Source: Chryseobacterium populi (GTDB lineage Bacteria; Bacteroidota; Bacteroidia; Flavobacteriales; Weeksellaceae). Taken from it: a DNA stretch of 64,000 nt. A model generated the notes under the pieces. It ran no database searches. It had not been told where the DNA came from and saw only the letters and a list, made by a program, of their open reading frames with translations. The DNA lies in NCBI RefSeq assembly GCF_000282115.1, contig NZ_AKJY01000002.1, forward strand, positions 62,001 to 126,000, written 5' to 3'. This document shows positions 30,693 through 37,455 of this stretch, piece after piece. Position numbers and translations under genes: made by a program. Position 1 is the first letter of the stretch. Each line of letters opens with the position of its first letter.

Positions 30693-31379
30693 CTATTTTC
30701 CATTTATAAAATCTTCCACTCCTTCCGATAATGCGACTGCCCTTGTCCCATCACCGAACTGAATCTCTTTCAGTAAATTTTTGTCCTTTAGCTCTTCTAT
30801 TTTTTTTTCTATTTTGTCATTTTCAATCGAAGTCACGTTATTCAGTATTTTTTCAACAGGAGTAAATTTTTTTTCCGGGTTATAAATTGTTTTCATGACT
30901 TCCTGGGTTTCGTCATCAGTAATAATCGCAGCCTGTTCCAGCTTATTCAATTCTACATTTTTATCATAGACCAGTGTTGTTTTTTGTACGTCATTAATAC
31001 GCTCTACTTCTTCTTTCATTTTTTTACTTTCCACTTTCAGGGCAGCATAGTCTTCCTTTAAATTCTGAACTACCCTGCTTGAAATGATATTGAGGTACTG
31101 TATTGAAGAATAAGCTGCAACAATACAGAATCCTGCAAAAATGAAATAATTAAGATCATAAATTTCATTTTTTTTCGGGTCTAAAATTGTTTTCAGTATA
31201 TCACTGGAAACGAGATTAAGGAACAGCGGTACTGTAATTGAGGCCAAAATCCCAAACATGATATTTCTAAGCAGGAATCTTCCCCCGTTTTCCTTCATTT
31301 CTTTTAATGAACTTCCGACGCCACCTATTATTCCACATAGAACAATGATAGCCATTATGATATAAATTTCTTCTTTCAT
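30693..31379 (-). CDS. Three-TM, coiled-coil protein (YEATS-associated/YLATT-like)
   Basis: The 228-residue protein has three N-terminal membrane helices (IMAIIVLCGIIGGVGSSL, IMFGILASITVPLFLNLV, FIFAGFCIVAAYSSIQYL). A charged coiled coil follows (about residues 110-150), then a C-terminal winged-helix-like segment ending in FGDGTRAVALSEGVEDFI. This layout recalls the three-TM helix proteins named for association with prokaryotic YEATS domains, though I assign it only from memory of that family. It is 17 bases downstream of the beta-repeat gene and almost surely cotranscribed with it. Confidence 0.6.
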   Translation of the reverse strand: MKEEIYIIMAIIVLCGIIGGVGSSLKEMKENGGRFLLRNIMFGILASITVPLFLNLVSSDILKTILDPKKNEIYDLNYFIFAGFCIVAAYSSIQYLNIISSRVVQNLKEDYAALKVESKKMKEEVERINDVQKTTLVYDKNVELNKLEQAAIITDDETQEVMKTIYNPEKKFTPVEKILNNVTSIENDKIEKKIEELKDKNLLKEIQFGDGTRAVALSEGVEDFINGK

Positions 31380-31396
31380 GACAATTGATTCAGGGG

Positions 31397-32368
31397 TTAT
31401 ACTTCTGCTTCTGCCATTTCAATGCTTTCGAGCGCTATCCGTCTTTGCTCATTGAGGTCCTTCAGCACCTGCTCAAACGGTGCAAGTATTTTATTCAAAT
31501 CATCAATCAGCTTATTCAGTTTATCTTCTTCGATTTTCAGCTGTTCTGCAGCACCATTGTTTTTTAGCTCACTGATTGTATTCTTGGAATCTTCAATAGC
31601 CTTTTCCATGTTTTTTTTGTCAGTATCAATGCTTCCCAGGATTTCAGCCTGTGCTTTATCAAACTGCTCATTCACAAGATTGACCTGCAAATATTTCATT
31701 TTCCCTTCATAGCCAAGAGTCAACTCATTAATTTTCTGTTGGATCTGGGTAATTTTTTCGTTGCTGTTTTCAATATTTTCTTCGGATTCAGCATAATCAA
31801 TGCTCGTTATGACCAAAGTGTTGAATGAAACTTCTTTCATTTCCACCGTTACTTCAGGAATATTCATGATAATTTCCTTTGTTTTCATGACCACTTCCGG
31901 AATTTTGGTCGACATACATTTGGTTTCCATCGTTACTTCTGGAACAGAAATAATAATTGGAGTCCATTTCGTAGTACACTGCCATATTTTAGTTTTGATA
32001 AAGCCTATCTTTTTCATTTTCCAATCACACGTTACTTCCGGTTTTTCACCCACTTTTTTATCTGTCATTTTGGTTTTAGGCCAGTCGAAACATATTTCTT
32101 TAAGCTTCATCGTTACCTCAGGAATATCAAAAGACCATTTCTGGCTTTTCATCGTAAACTGTGGTATAGGAACATTGAAGATGACTTTCTTCCATTCGAA
32201 ATTGTACTGATAATTGCCGTTCTTAATTTTAAACAGGGTTTTGTTATCCTGAAGGACTTCGCTGTCTTCACCGATAGAAGAGACTTCTTTAGAAATTTCG
32301 TTGGTAAGCTGTTTTAGCTCCGCATCAAATTCTTCTGTCAGTTTTTTGATTGATTCTTCTGTGTTCAT
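31397..32368 (-). CDS. Beta-repeat protein with C-terminal coiled coil, unknown function
   Basis: The 323-residue protein has no signal peptide. A Lys/Glu-rich N-terminal part precedes roughly 140 residues (about 50-190) of a degenerate 14-residue repeat of the type IPEVTMKLKEICFD, with Pro-Glu-Val cores at regular spacing and alternating hydrophobic residues, expected to form stacked beta-strands. Residues about 200-320 are strongly helical and coiled-coil-like. I do not recognise a family. It is the first gene of a two-gene unit. Its upstream region carries a dyad and -7 element shared with the response-regulator operon. Confidence 0.75.
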   Translation of the reverse strand: MNTEESIKKLTEEFDAELKQLTNEISKEVSSIGEDSEVLQDNKTLFKIKNGNYQYNFEWKKVIFNVPIPQFTMKSQKWSFDIPEVTMKLKEICFDWPKTKMTDKKVGEKPEVTCDWKMKKIGFIKTKIWQCTTKWTPIIISVPEVTMETKCMSTKIPEVVMKTKEIIMNIPEVTVEMKEVSFNTLVITSIDYAESEENIENSNEKITQIQQKINELTLGYEGKMKYLQVNLVNEQFDKAQAEILGSIDTDKKNMEKAIEDSKNTISELKNNGAAEQLKIEEDKLNKLIDDLNKILAPFEQVLKDLNEQRRIALESIEMAEAEV

Positions 32369-32422
32369 GATATCGTTATTTAATGATTAATAAAATTTAA
32401 AATGGTTATTAATTTTCTAAAC

Positions 32423-32471
32423 CAAAGTTGATGATAAAACGGCTTCCTGTCAATTACACAAACGGGTGATT
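32423..32471 (-). promoter_or_regulatory. Promoter and operator of the beta-repeat operon
   Basis: The site AATTACACAAACGGGTGATT (32452-32471) is an imperfect 8-4-8 dyad. On the minus strand a -7-like CAACTTTG occupies 32430-32423 and ends 55 bases before the start at 32368. A TTG (32453-32451) sits 20 bases from the -7 box. The -7 lacks the usual TA, as expected for an activator-dependent promoter. The matching site is at 35401-35449. Confidence 0.65.
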
Positions 32472-32482
32472 CTTAAAAGCAA

Positions 32483-32510
32483 AGCAGCATCATTTTTTAA
32501 TGATGCTGCT
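32483..32510 (-). terminator. Terminator of the two-component operon
   Basis: AGCAGCATCATT (32483-32494) and AATGATGCTGCT (32499-32510) form a perfect 12-base stem with a TTTT loop. It lies 24 bases past the histidine kinase stop and separates that operon from the beta-repeat unit. Confidence 0.85.
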
Positions 32511-32533
32511 CTTATACAGAAGCTTTAATTAAC

Positions 32534-33319
32534 TCATATTGTTGTTTTAAAAATAATGTGGGTGCCTTTCCCGGAAGATAATGTCTCACACCCACCACCC
32601 AATTCCTCCATTCTGCGATTCATATTCCTGAGGCCGTTTCCTGCGGGCTTTTCTTTATCAATCCCAATTCCGTCATCAGAGATCTCCATTAAAAACCGGT
32701 TTTCTTTTTGAGAGAATGAAAGCCTCAGTGTATCAGCCTGGCTGTGTTTATAGGCATTGTTGACAGCTTCTTTTAAACACAGAAACATATTCCGCCTTAG
32801 TTCTGTAGAAACCGGGGTTTCTGATATAATATCCATGCTTTCAAACCATGGTTTTATTTTTGTTTTTTTCAAAAAGTTCTCAGTATACCGGATCGCATAA
32901 TCGGTAAAGCTTCCCAGAGTATCATTCTCCGAATTTAGACTCCAGAGCATTTCCCGCATGGAGAGATTCATTTCTTCAGAAGTTTTTAACAGTTCATCAA
33001 TATCACTCTGCAGATCATCATCCTGTGCTTTCTGTTTTAAAAATTCTGCCTGAAGTTTGAGTGCAGAAATTCCGGCCCCGAGATCATCATGCATATCATG
33101 GGAAATACGTTCTCTTTCTTTCTCTATGGATTTTTGTTTTTCGAGCTCTTTTTGGAGAAGCTGGTTTTGACTTTCAATATTCAATTGTTTTTCTTTCAAA
33201 TAAAGAATCTGTTTTTTGTTATACATCAGTACAACAAAAACTATAAATACTGCAAAAACGATTATTAACACAATTGCAGTAACGTATATAAATTTTATTT
33301 CAAACGGAAGTTCCTTCAT
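32534..33319 (-). CDS. Sensor histidine kinase (HisKA_3 type)
   Basis: The 261-residue kinase has one N-terminal membrane helix (residues 10-33), a coiled-coil linker, a HisKA_3 dimerisation domain with the phospho-acceptor in ERISHDMHDDLG (probably His77), and a HATPase domain (EAVNNAYKHSQA N-box, DDGIGID G1-box and GNGLRNM). It has no separate sensor domain, so input probably comes from a partner membrane protein. The 20-base overlap with the 7TM gene upstream makes that protein the obvious candidate. Confidence 0.9.
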   Translation of the reverse strand: MKELPFEIKFIYVTAIVLIIVFAVFIVFVVLMYNKKQILYLKEKQLNIESQNQLLQKELEKQKSIEKERERISHDMHDDLGAGISALKLQAEFLKQKAQDDDLQSDIDELLKTSEEMNLSMREMLWSLNSENDTLGSFTDYAIRYTENFLKKTKIKPWFESMDIISETPVSTELRRNMFLCLKEAVNNAYKHSQADTLRLSFSQKENRFLMEISDDGIGIDKEKPAGNGLRNMNRRMEELGGGCETLSSGKGTHIIFKTTI

Positions 33320-33914
33320 CTTTACACAATAAGCCTTTAAAAAAAATAATGTAGGAAATGATAGTAATAATCTGGAATGTTGTTTTAAGTAAATATGAAA
33401 ATTCTAAATCAGATTTAACAAAAAAGTACATGGGGAACATTCTAAAAATATAAAAAACAGACCAAAGCAATAAAGAACTGCTTATCCAAAAAAAACGTAA
33501 GTCTATGATATTATCTTTATCGTTTCTTTTGGAAATTTTTCTGTAAAACCAAAACAAAGAAATGAAAATTAAGAAAATTGAATATAAAAAACCTGTAATA
33601 ATCGAGTAATTCGTTTTTGAAAACCCAATAAATACTCCTCCGGTTAGTATAGAAATAAGAGTAATTATTTTAATTACTTCACTTTTCTTCAGTTCATTAA
33701 AATATAAATACCCAAAATATCCTATACAGAATATATCCAAATAATTGTAGATCCGCGTCGTTACAAAATCAGCTTTAAAGCTAATCAGTACTTCTATGAC
33801 AACTGTGATCCCAAAATATAACCAAAAATATTGTTTCCACAGCCTTTTAAAAACTATGGAAACAATTAAATTAATAAATATTACAGCATAATATAAAATA
33901 TCCAGCCCACTCAT
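33300..33914 (-). CDS. Seven-TM membrane protein, likely sensor partner of the kinase
   Basis: The roughly 204-residue protein has seven evenly spaced hydrophobic helices and short loops, ending in FFKGLLCKDEG. No family is recognised, but the layout resembles membrane sensing modules of Bacteroidota. The start is uncertain: ATG at 33914 lies two bases after the preceding stop, while ATGs at 33932 and 33962 would overlap the upstream gene. I use 33914. It overlaps the kinase gene by 20 bases, so the two are translationally coupled. Confidence 0.7.
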   Translation of the reverse strand: MSGLDILYYAVIFINLIVSIVFKRLWKQYFWLYFGITVVIEVLISFKADFVTTRIYNYLDIFCIGYFGYLYFNELKKSEVIKIITLISILTGGVFIGFSKTNYSIITGFLYSIFLIFISLFWFYRKISKRNDKDNIIDLRFFWISSSLLLWSVFYIFRMFPMYFFVKSDLEFSYLLKTTFQIITIISYIIFFKGLLCKDEGTSV

Positions 33915-33915
33915 C

Positions 33916-34746
33916 TTAGCAATTTGAATCATCTGGTGGAGGGCAAAGCCCGTTTCTGTCATAAACTCCACTGCCTGGTATTTCGATACGCGATGCGCCA
34001 GAGTAATATTCTAACATCATGACGAATGTCAATCTTCTTCTATAGTTAACTTCAACATTAACTCCTCCATTATTAATGATCCTGAGATAATCCAATACAT
34101 GAATAGCCGGATAAAAAGAAATAACAATATTAGAATGTACTGTGAATTGTCTTAAAAGCTCTTTATACAAGACATCACCTACTGTAAATTTTTTCGTGCT
34201 TAAAGAATTTGCAAAATCAATTTGCAAATATCTGTCTAGTTCTCTTTTAAGTCCGCCTTCATAATTGGTTTTATATGTATCAAATTCCTGCTGTGATATT
34301 GGTGTTTTCTTTAATGTATTATTTACGATATAATGTTCGAGAGAAGTCCCATTATTCAACTTACACATAAAGATCAACCCATCATTAATTTCCCCTAAAA
34401 AGATGTCAACTTCACTTACATTTAGAAAAATATCATCCGCTACACTTTTGGATATCTCCAGCCTCTTTCTATACTTATCATTCAAGTTGTTTAAGTCAAC
34501 ATATTCCCAAATCATTGGAATTGCAGATTCCGGATGGATTTTCCCTGTGTCTTGTTGTGCATATACCGTATAATCTTTCCATTTATCTTTTTCAATTAAT
34601 TCCATGACATTGCCCCTTTCAATCCTTTCTTTTTCCTTATTACAGAATGTTTGAATAACATTCAGATCATCAATCCCTATTAAATTATAATTAACTAACT
34701 GATGAATTCTTCCTAAAAGGTCTTGTAAATCCTGATTTTCTTCCAT
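33916..34746 (-). CDS. 276-residue protein of unknown function in the two-component operon
   Basis: The protein has no signal peptide or membrane helix and seems cytosolic. A helical start (DLQDLLGRIHQLVNYN) is followed by a mixed alpha/beta region and a Cys/Pro-rich end, GLCPPPDDSNC. I do not recognise a family. Its place between the response regulator (five-base gap) and the 7TM protein suggests a role as a signalling adaptor or as a product linked to the sensing event. No catalytic motif is apparent. Confidence 0.7.
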   Translation of the reverse strand: MEENQDLQDLLGRIHQLVNYNLIGIDDLNVIQTFCNKEKERIERGNVMELIEKDKWKDYTVYAQQDTGKIHPESAIPMIWEYVDLNNLNDKYRKRLEISKSVADDIFLNVSEVDIFLGEINDGLIFMCKLNNGTSLEHYIVNNTLKKTPISQQEFDTYKTNYEGGLKRELDRYLQIDFANSLSTKKFTVGDVLYKELLRQFTVHSNIVISFYPAIHVLDYLRIINNGGVNVEVNYRRRLTFVMMLEYYSGASRIEIPGSGVYDRNGLCPPPDDSNC

Positions 34747-34751
34747 GATTC

Positions 34752-35384
34752 TTAGTTTTTAAATTGGTTAAATTTGTTTATTGCTTCTACTTTATTATTT
34801 ACGTGAAGTTTTCTGTAGATATTACCAACGTGTTTTTTTACGGTATCCATGCTGATAAACTTTTTATCGGCAATTTCTTTGTATAAAAGACCCTGAGCGA
34901 GAAGTTCCAGGATTTCTTTCTCACGGTTGGTAAGCTCATCAAAACCTTTTACGTCTGAACTTTTCTTTTCGAAATGGGTGAGAACCCTTCTGGCAATAGA
35001 ATGGCTCATCGGAGCACCGCCATTGTAGACGTCACGGATTGAGGAAAGAATTTTATCCATGCTTTCTCCTTTGATGAGATATCCCATGGCTCCGGCTTTT
35101 AAAGAATTGAAAATCTTTTCATCATCTTCAAAGCTGGTACACATGATAAACTGTGTATCGGGCATGTCTTTCCGTAACTTTTCTATGATTTCAATTCCGA
35201 GTATATCCTGCAGCTGAATATCCATCATTACAACATCCGGAGAAATACCGGCAAGGTTATTCAGAGCATCATTTCCATCAAAAAACTGAGCAACTACCTT
35301 CATATCACTCTGGTAATTGATCACCTTCTTCAACGCATTGTTGTAGTTTTTTTCATCTTCTACTATGGCTATGGAAATGCTCAT
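34752..35384 (-). CDS. LuxR/NarL-family response regulator
   Basis: The 210-residue protein has a receiver domain (IAIVEDEK acidic pocket, phospho-acceptor Asp55 in VVMMDIQLQD, CTSFEDDEK switch Thr/Ser, LIKGE Lys) and a C-terminal LuxR helix-turn-helix (LTNREKEILELLAQGLLYKEIA, then STDTVKKHV-like MDTVKKHVGNIYRKL). It is the first gene of the operon that ends with the kinase. A perfect palindrome lies 46 bases upstream and fits autoregulation. Confidence 0.92.
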   Translation of the reverse strand: MSISIAIVEDEKNYNNALKKVINYQSDMKVVAQFFDGNDALNNLAGISPDVVMMDIQLQDILGIEIIEKLRKDMPDTQFIMCTSFEDDEKIFNSLKAGAMGYLIKGESMDKILSSIRDVYNGGAPMSHSIARRVLTHFEKKSSDVKGFDELTNREKEILELLAQGLLYKEIADKKFISMDTVKKHVGNIYRKLHVNNKVEAINKFNQFKN

Positions 35385-35400
35385 GTTCTTTTTTTTGAGA

Positions 35401-35449
35401 CAAATTTCAGCAGAAAACAAAGCAGAATCAATTACACCTTTGTGTAATT
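35401..35449 (-). promoter_or_regulatory. Promoter and perfect dyad operator of the response-regulator operon
   Basis: AATTACAC (35430-35437), CTTT, GTGTAATT (35442-35449) is a perfect 8-4-8 palindrome. A -7-like GAAATTTG (minus strand, 35408-35401) has its TTTG exactly 29 bases from the dyad edge, the same distance as in the beta-repeat promoter at 32423-32471. Confidence 0.65.
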
Positions 35450-35598: not shown

Positions 35599-37455
35599 CT
35601 ATTTCACAAGCTGATCCAAAATCGGGTGATCAATACTGTTTATGGAGCTGCTGCCTTCAAAAATCTGTTCAAAAATCTGAATACCATTTTTTCCTTTTTT
35701 CAGCCATACTCCCGGAACATATAAGGTTTGCTGCGGACCGGCTTTGCTCCAGTATCTTCCGATATTCCTTCCGTTTATAAAAACAATTCCTTTTCCGAAT
35801 TTCCGCATGTCGAGAAAAGTATCTCCGGTTTCATCGAGTTTAAATTCAGCTTCACTTATTACCGGGGAATTATTCGCGATATCTTTTTGCTGGTACTTAT
35901 GCTTTGGAAACTGATCAAAAGGCAAAGGAAACATTTCCCAGTTTCCTGAAATCTCACTCCCATTAATGATTACCGGACTGATAATTCCTTTTAAATTATG
36001 AACAATTTCAGCGCCGTAGTTGATCCTTCCCATATTTTCAACTAGTATTTCCAGTCTGTCTCCGGCTTTGATTTCAATATCGAGATCATATTTTTTGTTA
36101 ACCCTGTTAAGTTCTCCTTGCCAGCGTTCATTAACATAAACATTCGCATAATCTCTCAGCCCTTTTATTTCCAGTTTTCCTTTCTGATCTTTGTTAAATT
36201 TCCGTCTGTACATTATATACCCGTTTCCGATATTAAGATCTTCAAACGTCAGAGGTTGATTATGAATAATAGGTTTTTGCTGCTGAATAACATCAAAGAG
36301 AGAGTTTATTTTTGTGAACTTAATTTCCGGAATAGTGATCACCTTCATCGGTTTTGGAACTTCCGGGAGACGCTGCCGATTAATTTTCTGAAAAATATCT
36401 CTTAGGGCATTAAATTTAGGAGTCACCCAGCCGGCCTCGTTGATGGGAGCATCATAATCATAGCTCGTAAGATCCGGCTGAATATCATGGTTTTTATCAT
36501 AATTGGCCCCACTTGTAAAACCGAAATTTGTTCCTCCATGAATCATATAATAATTAAATGAAATTCCATTTTTAATGTACAATTCTGTTTGCTTCACGAC
36601 ATCTTCCGTTGAAACTTTCACGAATGGTTCTGCCCAGTGATCGAGCCAGCCCGGGTAATATTCTGCAACCATATACGGGCCTTTTCCGTTATTAAATTCA
36701 TTGATCTTTTTCCTGAGATTATCAACATCTCCTTCTCCGTTTGCAGTCGGCAGAGCCCCTTCAATGGAACCTTCCTTAAAAAGCCAGCTTCCGTCCGAAG
36801 TAAAAAACGGAACTGTAATTCCGGATTTTACGAGAAAATCTTTTATTTTATGACTGTACTTTTTGTGTTGTTCTAATGAAATATCCTTACGTTGGGCCAC
36901 ATAAGATCCGAATTCATTTTCAGCCTGAACCATAATAACCGGTCCGCCATTGTTAATCTGTAACGGAATAATCTGTTTTGCCAGCTCATTGATATAATTT
37001 TCACACTGCTTGAGAAATGCTTTATTATCCGTTCTTATTTCTAAATTTTTATCTTTCTGCAGCCACCACGGATACCCGCCAAACTCCCATTCTGCACAAA
37101 CATATGGCCCCGGACGGATGATTACATACAAACCCGCTTCCTGTGCTGTTTTTATAAACTTTTTTAAATCTTTCTCTCCGGAAAAGTTCCATTTTCCAGG
37201 TTCTTCCTCATGATAATTCCAAAAAACATAGGTTGTGACCGTGTTTAGCCCCATCGATTTCATCATTTGCAGCCGGTGTTTCCAATATTCAGAAGGAACT
37301 CTCGGATAATGCATCTCTCCGGAATAGATGGTAAACGGTTTTCCGCTTAATAAAAAGTGGCCATCCTTAATTTCAAAATTTCCTTTTTGAGAATACAGTA
37401 AATTAATAGAGAAAAAGGAAAGAATTATGTATAAATATTTGCAAAAAGATTTCAT
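35599..37455 (-). CDS. GH35 beta-galactosidase
   Basis: The 618-residue secreted enzyme has a signal peptide (LLYSQ) and the GH35 barrel: IYSGEMHYPRVPSEYW, RPGPYVCAEWEFGGYPWWL, acid/base Glu181 in QAENEFGSY and nucleophile Glu265 in MVAEYYPGW. It then has MIHGGTNFGFTSGAN and C-terminal jelly-roll domains ending in GRNIGRYW. It removes terminal beta-galactose from glycans or polysaccharides in the periplasm or outside. It is a monocistronic unit, divergent from the lipoprotein gene at 37521. Confidence 0.93.
   Translation of the reverse strand: MKSFCKYLYIILSFFSINLLYSQKGNFEIKDGHFLLSGKPFTIYSGEMHYPRVPSEYWKHRLQMMKSMGLNTVTTYVFWNYHEEEPGKWNFSGEKDLKKFIKTAQEAGLYVIIRPGPYVCAEWEFGGYPWWLQKDKNLEIRTDNKAFLKQCENYINELAKQIIPLQINNGGPVIMVQAENEFGSYVAQRKDISLEQHKKYSHKIKDFLVKSGITVPFFTSDGSWLFKEGSIEGALPTANGEGDVDNLRKKINEFNNGKGPYMVAEYYPGWLDHWAEPFVKVSTEDVVKQTELYIKNGISFNYYMIHGGTNFGFTSGANYDKNHDIQPDLTSYDYDAPINEAGWVTPKFNALRDIFQKINRQRLPEVPKPMKVITIPEIKFTKINSLFDVIQQQKPIIHNQPLTFEDLNIGNGYIMYRRKFNKDQKGKLEIKGLRDYANVYVNERWQGELNRVNKKYDLDIEIKAGDRLEILVENMGRINYGAEIVHNLKGIISPVIINGSEISGNWEMFPLPFDQFPKHKYQQKDIANNSPVISEAEFKLDETGDTFLDMRKFGKGIVFINGRNIGRYWSKAGPQQTLYVPGVWLKKGKNGIQIFEQIFEGSSSINSIDHPILDQLVK

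Follow-up and report, generated by a model that had tools for sequence, protein, structure and literature searches.

A window of 64,000 nucleotides (nt) from Chryseobacterium populi (contig NZ_AKJY01000002.1, positions 62,001 to 126,000) contains a two-component regulatory locus in which two related inverted repeats precede two adjacent sets of genes. The first set, an operon, encodes a response regulator, a protein of hypervariable sequence referred to here as u, a polytopic membrane protein labelled 7TM (TM, transmembrane) and a histidine kinase. The second, subsequently called the cassette, encodes a beta-repeat protein and a three-TM protein. It is considered probable (roughly 0.8), from sequence comparison, that the dyad is the operator through which the regulator activates its own operon together with an exchangeable cassette, and that u, 7TM and the TM segment of the kinase constitute a polymorphic input unit. 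As judged from the loci compared, three parts make up the system: a frame (regulator, kinase core and operators) that is conserved, and a recognition block and an output that are each exchangeable.

Two dyads with a common promoter geometry

The features of the locus are listed below in the direction of transcription. The gene order given in a preliminary description of this DNA is correct and all six genes lie on the minus strand.

35430..35449, minus strand: operator 1, upstream of the regulator operon, AATTACACCTTTGTGTAATT, a perfect 8-4-8 palindrome
35429..35431, minus strand: TTG at the downstream end of the dyad, candidate -33 element, invariant among regulator promoters
35401..35408, minus strand: -7 box of the regulator promoter, GAAATTTG, T of TA replaced by G
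34752..35384, minus strand: NarL/LuxR-type response regulator (PF00072, E 2e-22; PF00196, E 5e-19)
33916..34746, minus strand: hypervariable u protein, 276 amino acids (aa), without Pfam family, C-terminal tail VYDRNGLCPPPDDSNC
33919..33960, minus strand: codons of the type-specific C-terminal tail of u (DRNGLCPPPDDSNC); predicted local distance difference test (pLDDT) about 49 for the last residues
33300..33914, minus strand: polytopic 7TM membrane protein, co-varying with u, without Pfam family
32534..33319, minus strand: histidine kinase with one TM segment (PF07730 HisKA_3 and PF02518)
32479..32512, minus strand: terminator-like hairpin 3' of the kinase (-21.6 kcal/mol, z -4.5)
32452..32471, minus strand: operator 2, upstream of the cassette, AATTACACAAACGGGTGATT
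32423..32430, minus strand: -7 box of the cassette promoter, CAACTTTG, with spacing equal to that of the regulator promoter
31397..32368, minus strand: cassette gene 1, IPEVTM-repeat (beta-repeat) plus coiled-coil protein, 323 aa
30693..31379, minus strand: cassette gene 2, three-TM protein (Pfam YLATT, PF20303, E 4e-23)

The dyad coordinates and the perfect symmetry of the first site, as described previously, are exact to the base. Operator 2 agrees with the reverse complement of operator 1 at 17 of 20 bases, and the CAAA that reads TTTG on the minus strand begins at 35401 and 32423, in each case 29 bases ahead of the dyad. The earlier statement that the -7 boxes lack their TA applies to the T, which has gone and usually gives way to G; the A is invariant. 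Compared with the sigma-ABfr consensus, which is TTTG/TANNTTTG for the -33/-7 elements (PMC6847099), the boxes keep TTTG and the A of the -7 element, and the T is replaced, mostly by G. Setting the G of TTTG as -5, after the same source, places the centre of the dyad ~43 bases upstream of the start, with the dyad overlapping the TTG at the -33 position. This is likely to be the position of an activator. Dimers of the LuxR/NarL type usually activate from a centre near -43.

Without the spacing the dyad carries little information. In the window it has two matches at ≤3 mismatches against 0.53 expected, a number reached by 11 of 100 shuffles, and in the genome as a whole 24 sites at ≤3 mismatches compare with 17 for the control, which is uninformative without the promoter spacing. 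The spaced pattern AATNACNCNNNNGNGTNATTG-N24-TTTG has 4 sites at ≤2 mismatches in the 4.48-Mb genome, and its reversed form, used as the control, has none; the only perfect sites are the two in the window. The genome-wide scan that had been proposed as a check thus finds the operator to be rare, with two further sites besides the window pair.

Across the genus, where 148 genomes (one per species) were compared, the dyad with TTTG 25 bases downstream is found in 118 genomes, against 2 hits in total for the reversed control. It typically occurs exactly twice per genome, with the copies about 3 kb apart. Orthologues of the regulator are present in 120 genomes (E 1e-85 or better), and the spaced pattern occurs in 115 of these 120 vs 3 of the 28 that have no regulator. 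When 92 regulator loci were dissected, 85 showed the dyad ≤160 nt from the regulator with TTTG at exactly +25. At six of the remaining seven the regulator is preceded by an inserted small gene, with the dyad upstream of this insert and TTTA at +25; at the seventh the examined stretch stops too soon. The comparison with relatives, also proposed earlier, therefore finds the operator conserved upstream of orthologues and linked in its occurrence to the regulator, and the regulatory reading of the two dyads is strongly supported by it. The preliminary description had the regulator activating both its own operon and the beta-repeat/three-TM pair. One regulator-linked operator does serve both; binding by the local regulator, and the likely activation rather than repression, are what we infer from it.

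Of the 33 genera of the family, 8 contain relatives of the kinase. The quartet of regulator, u, 7TM and kinase is found in other genera and in other neighbourhoods, often with operator and spacing unchanged. In two such loci (L291/L293) both arms are altered together in both promoters, to CCAC..GTGG instead of ACAC..GTGT (the cassette promoter reads TTCCAC..GTGGAA, the regulator promoter CCAC..GTGG), and the recognition helix of the regulator is altered from KKHVGN to KKQAGS. Such a joint change of arms and helix would be expected if a dimer operator co-evolves with its regulator. In L300-L302 the dyad is a different one, ATACC-N8-GGTAT, with the distance from its centre to TTTG preserved. Other arrangements are also seen: in another genus of the family (L295-L299, L307) 7TM-like and kinase genes occur without an adjacent regulator or u gene, and at L305 (L305:5292-7298, kinase on the plus strand) a 668-aa frame ending in a kinase domain directly follows the regulator. 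The frame possibly encodes a fused sensor kinase, in which case it would take the place of three separate genes (7TM, u and kinase).

One of the two additional sites in the C. populi genome (C32:97870) lies before a lipoprotein homologous to cassette family 5 (E 2e-28), the other (C3:64481) before a secreted protein, about 440 aa long and of no clear family. In other genomes unlinked sites stand before homologues of cassette families 20 and 22, and in some (L031, L054) a dyad-like sequence lies upstream of unlinked, distant relatives of the beta-repeat gene. As far as these sequences go, the promoter pattern predicts cassette-family genes elsewhere in the genome.

Small genes were noted beside some operators. 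A gene of ~62-68 aa (example MLTEADIKNVSLEKSPESVNFCAIWPSAKTGLQVLAGIIKNPVVKGVIGMIVTLGDSLCPSN) lies between operator and regulator in L045, L156, L167, L169, L181, L049 and L177, accompanied in L049 and L177 by a 191-aa hydrolase-like gene; its product resembles small peptides that are secreted or bacteriocin-like. In L194 an open reading frame of 135 aa, ~70 nt downstream of an unlinked operator site, encodes a protein that ends ...KIIIKYFLQRGIGAVCPV and resembles the 62-aa inserted peptides in style.

An exchangeable output slot and a variable input block

The strong hairpin between the kinase and the second promoter implies that the regulator operon and the cassette are two separate transcription units. 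The cassette consists of 0-3 genes between the kinase and eno, drawn from >15 unrelated (BLAST-unconnected) families; these families are BLAST clusters that may merge at fold level, and as the gene map was made from open reading frames of at least 50-60 aa, smaller cassette genes may escape. The products include small TM proteins, lipoproteins, a trypsin-like protein (PF00089) and YLATT/pYEATS proteins, together with beta-sandwich-like proteins and barrel-like secreted proteins of ~400 aa, the last two labels being readings of the sequences by eye. In the window the product of 30693-31379 scores 81.6 bits for YLATT vs a family cut-off of 26.7, and a 357-aa cassette protein of another genome matches YLATT at E 9e-21 and pYEATS weakly, at E 2e-4, under its cut-off. 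No paper on YLATT or pYEATS by name was found in the open-access literature. The beta-repeat gene occupies the slot in 3 of 148 genomes. The 'envelope-sensing module' of fixed genes proposed in the preliminary description thus gives way to a beta-repeat/three-TM pair that is one of many interchangeable cassettes.

Where a cassette gene is present, the dyad precedes it at 71 of 74 loci: the automatic rule recognized 67, another is degenerate, and at three more it stands behind an inserted orphan u gene. Of the 17 loci that lack a cassette, 15 have no dyad; of the two exceptions, one has kept a promoter but no gene and the other is a chance match lacking the box. At L126, where 281 nt separate the kinase from eno, the cassette operator is retained with no cassette gene of at least 60 aa, as a remnant promoter. 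Since the same operator and spacing stand before unrelated genes, descent from a single ancestral pairing of promoter and gene fails to account for the site, and since the cassette genes come from unrelated families, the site would have been selected independently of the gene. On the evidence of these loci the second promoter is tied to the slot and not to a particular gene.

The input side varies in a different manner. The regulator combines the receiver domain and the GerE (LuxR) DNA-binding domain of the NarL/LuxR type. Compared pairwise over 85 loci, regulators have a median identity of 85% and kinases of 70%, vs 29% for 7TM and 15% for u. The u proteins range from about 197 to 317 aa and fall into many BLAST-unconnected clusters. 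An alignment of 42 of them gives a confident model of a single alpha/beta domain (pLDDT 85.5), and the u proteins are probably one family by this prediction. Neither u nor 7TM had a convincing match in Pfam or NCBIfam. Foldseek found no match to the u model in the PDB or BFVD at E ≤0.001, and the best VIA-align score, to sliding clamps (Z 4.4), is too low for interpretation. PADLOC gave nothing meaningful for u, 7TM, the beta-repeat protein and the cassette proteins tried, with two weak hits at E about 0.002.

At nearly all loci u ends in a short tail, for example YDMGSLYP, YDIGNMQP, YDAGDLKP, YDQGSLEP, YDMNSLCPQQCP or DRNGLCPPGC, and at least 14 tail types occur within the genus. The last residues of the window tail are predicted to be disordered. 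The nearest relative by 7TM has the same tail type at 81 of 85 loci, vs 22 of 85 for the nearest relative by regulator, and the agreement by 7TM is 79 of 85 when restricted to loci with regulator identity <90%. Groups for the conservation of the tail were formed by the 7TM protein alone, since groups defined by the tail would be circular. Within these groups identity is 79% in the last ten residues of u vs 31% in the body, and the tail is the higher in all 351 pairs. The tail codons show synonymous differences, so it is the protein that is conserved and not the DNA. Association with tail type extends over the whole 7TM protein and the first ~45 kinase residues, which contain the TM segment, and is gone beyond residue ~46. 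By these distributions u and 7TM are a co-inherited allele pair inside a conserved regulator/kinase frame.

Orphan u-like genes lie between the kinase and the cassette operator at L138:3980-4612, L143:4036-4806 and L144:3944-4660 (regulator on the plus strand). Their tails (DRNGLCPPGC, LDMGHLYP and LDMGSLYP, respectively) are of another type than that of the resident u, as would be expected if tails matter by type. The class of the cassette shows no association with tail type (mutual information p 0.41), and the idea of a cassette matched to the signal was dropped for this reason.

Proposed mechanism and alternative readings

In the proposed mechanism u, via its tail, would engage the 7TM protein, and 7TM together with the TM segment of the kinase would gate kinase activity; contact between tail and 7TM, and any signal role, are inferred here from the allele block and the conservation of the tail. 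The kinase would probably phosphorylate the regulator, a dimer of which would bind the dyad over the -33 region, ~43 bases upstream of the start. The regulator would thereby activate two weak promoters, that of its own operon (regulator, u, 7TM and kinase) and that of the separate cassette, here the beta-repeat and YLATT genes, with a few unlinked genes of cassette families under the same promoter. As its own operon is among the targets, positive feedback is predicted. Sequence comparison shows how the operator is conserved and spaced and how it is linked to regulator and cassette, as well as the additional regulon members, the allele block and the conservation of the tail.

Several observations count against this mechanism. 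Three loci (L131, L185, L186) carry cassette genes without a recognisable operator, and the recognition helix probably changed only once in evolution. An export signal is not recognisable in most u proteins, a lipoprotein signal being present in roughly a fifth of the 85. A site overlapping -33 could also serve repression, and the adjacency of u and 7TM means that linkage alone could give their co-inheritance. From the window alone, with its mild excess of dyads, chance resemblance or a dispersed repeat might be suggested; the comparison refutes this through genus-wide conservation, exact spacing, controls near zero and few other copies, and leaves it a negligible probability. A compact dyad suits many dimeric regulators, and it is from sequence that binding is ascribed to the local one. 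That another dimeric regulator binds the dyad while the local response regulator acts elsewhere is nevertheless very unlikely, as the pattern tracks the regulator (115/120 vs 3/28 genomes), moves with its gene into other neighbourhoods and genera, and changes its letters in both promoters along with the recognition helix. Repression of both promoters by the regulator, to be lifted by kinase input, would agree with the overlap between the dyad and the candidate -33 element. It is distinctly unlikely given a centre near -43, usual for activation by LuxR/NarL-type dimers, and given -7 boxes that have lost the T of TANNTTTG, as expected of activator-dependent promoters.

The remaining alternatives concern the input. 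In an envelope-stress circuit the kinase and 7TM would sense the envelope and the cassette would protect it, which fits with cassettes that encode membrane, secreted, lipoprotein and barrel-like proteins and with a kinase that is distantly LiaS-like. At least 14 matched sensor alleles would not be expected of a stress sensor, nor would a mosaic of unrelated outputs independent of sensor type, making such a circuit unlikely; the nature of the variable parts favours polymorphic recognition or signalling over a generic envelope-stress circuit. It is doubtful, if less so, that the match between u tail and 7TM is mere linkage, the block recombining as a unit and the tail being a folding, sorting or docking signal without recognition. 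The two genes are indeed adjacent, and the exchange boundaries (the end of the regulator and kinase residue ~46) resemble the limits of homologous recombination; however, linkage leaves unexplained the identity of 0.79 in the tail vs 0.31 in the body within 7TM groups, and a generic sorting signal would not vary by 7TM type. Under the proposed input unit the tail may be released as a peptide, tag the surface or serve for internal docking. A more specific suggestion, tentative and at somewhat less than even chances, is a peptide-pherotype-like system of communication or self-recognition in Bacteroidota. Here the u tail would be read by the matched 7TM and kinase, which would switch on a surface-directed cassette through the fixed operator, and orphan u genes with foreign tails would be decoys or a memory of other types.

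Relation to known systems and chromosomal setting

The locus may work like ComQXPA or agr, by analogy, and is not a member of either. Its kinase (PF07730 and PF02518) and regulator (PF00072 and PF00196) have the same domain content as ComP and ComA of the Bacillus ComQXPA system (PMC4008528). Similarly, a hypervariable precursor-like protein with a conserved C-terminus is paired with a variable multi-TM sensor, and the co-variation that characterizes ComQXPA/agr pherotypes, of a variable precursor with the membrane part of its receptor against a conserved regulator and kinase core, is found here. Unlike ComQXPA, no ComQ isoprenyl transferase family, and no processing enzyme, was matched in the family search among the four operon genes, and u is long (about 197-317 aa), with no short ComX-type pre-peptide. 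The polytopic domain lies on a separate gene, the kinase having one TM segment and no multi-TM N-terminal sensor of its own. The host is Gram-negative, without a known processing or export partner, and any diffusible signal is putative.

In agr (AgrBDCA), allele groups of the precursor and the membrane domain of the receptor are exchanged as a block, and the locus is autoregulated with a second output transcript. Block-exchanged allele groups, a probable autoregulation and a second output transcript recur in the present locus; the regulator differs in being of the LuxR/GerE type and not LytTR, no AgrB peptidase family was matched in the operon and there is no AgrD-like small peptide. Other NarL/LuxR regulators with HisKA_3 kinases share the domain content and a compact inverted-repeat operator near -43, and differ in operator sequence, in the separate 7TM subunit and u protein, and in the fixed coupling to exchangeable cassettes found here. 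YLATT (PF20303) and pYEATS (PF20305) proteins appear here as outputs of a two-component system, as one among many alternative cassettes.

Searches of the open-access literature turned up neither a description of the locus nor a peptide-type signalling system of this sort for Bacteroidota, and no peptide signalling in Chryseobacterium was among the matches. The many matched versions of the sensor part suggest, as far as sequence can indicate, a recognition or signalling system so far undescribed in the phylum. With at least 14 matched sensor alleles and >15 interchangeable output families occupying a single chromosomal site within a conserved regulator frame, it is a candidate that can be tested directly. 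From the operator code (dyad, 25 bases, TTTG) the regulon of Chryseobacterium genomes can be predicted, as has already been done here for unlinked genes.

In Chryseobacterium the locus lies between rpoA/rplQ and eno, in the syntenic order rpoA, rplQ, small gene, (beta-galactosidase), regulator, u, 7TM, kinase, [cassette], eno and gltA. The beta-galactosidase-type gene, at 35599-37455 of the window and upstream of the regulator, is present in some genomes and absent in others, and is outside the regulon as defined by the dyad operator.

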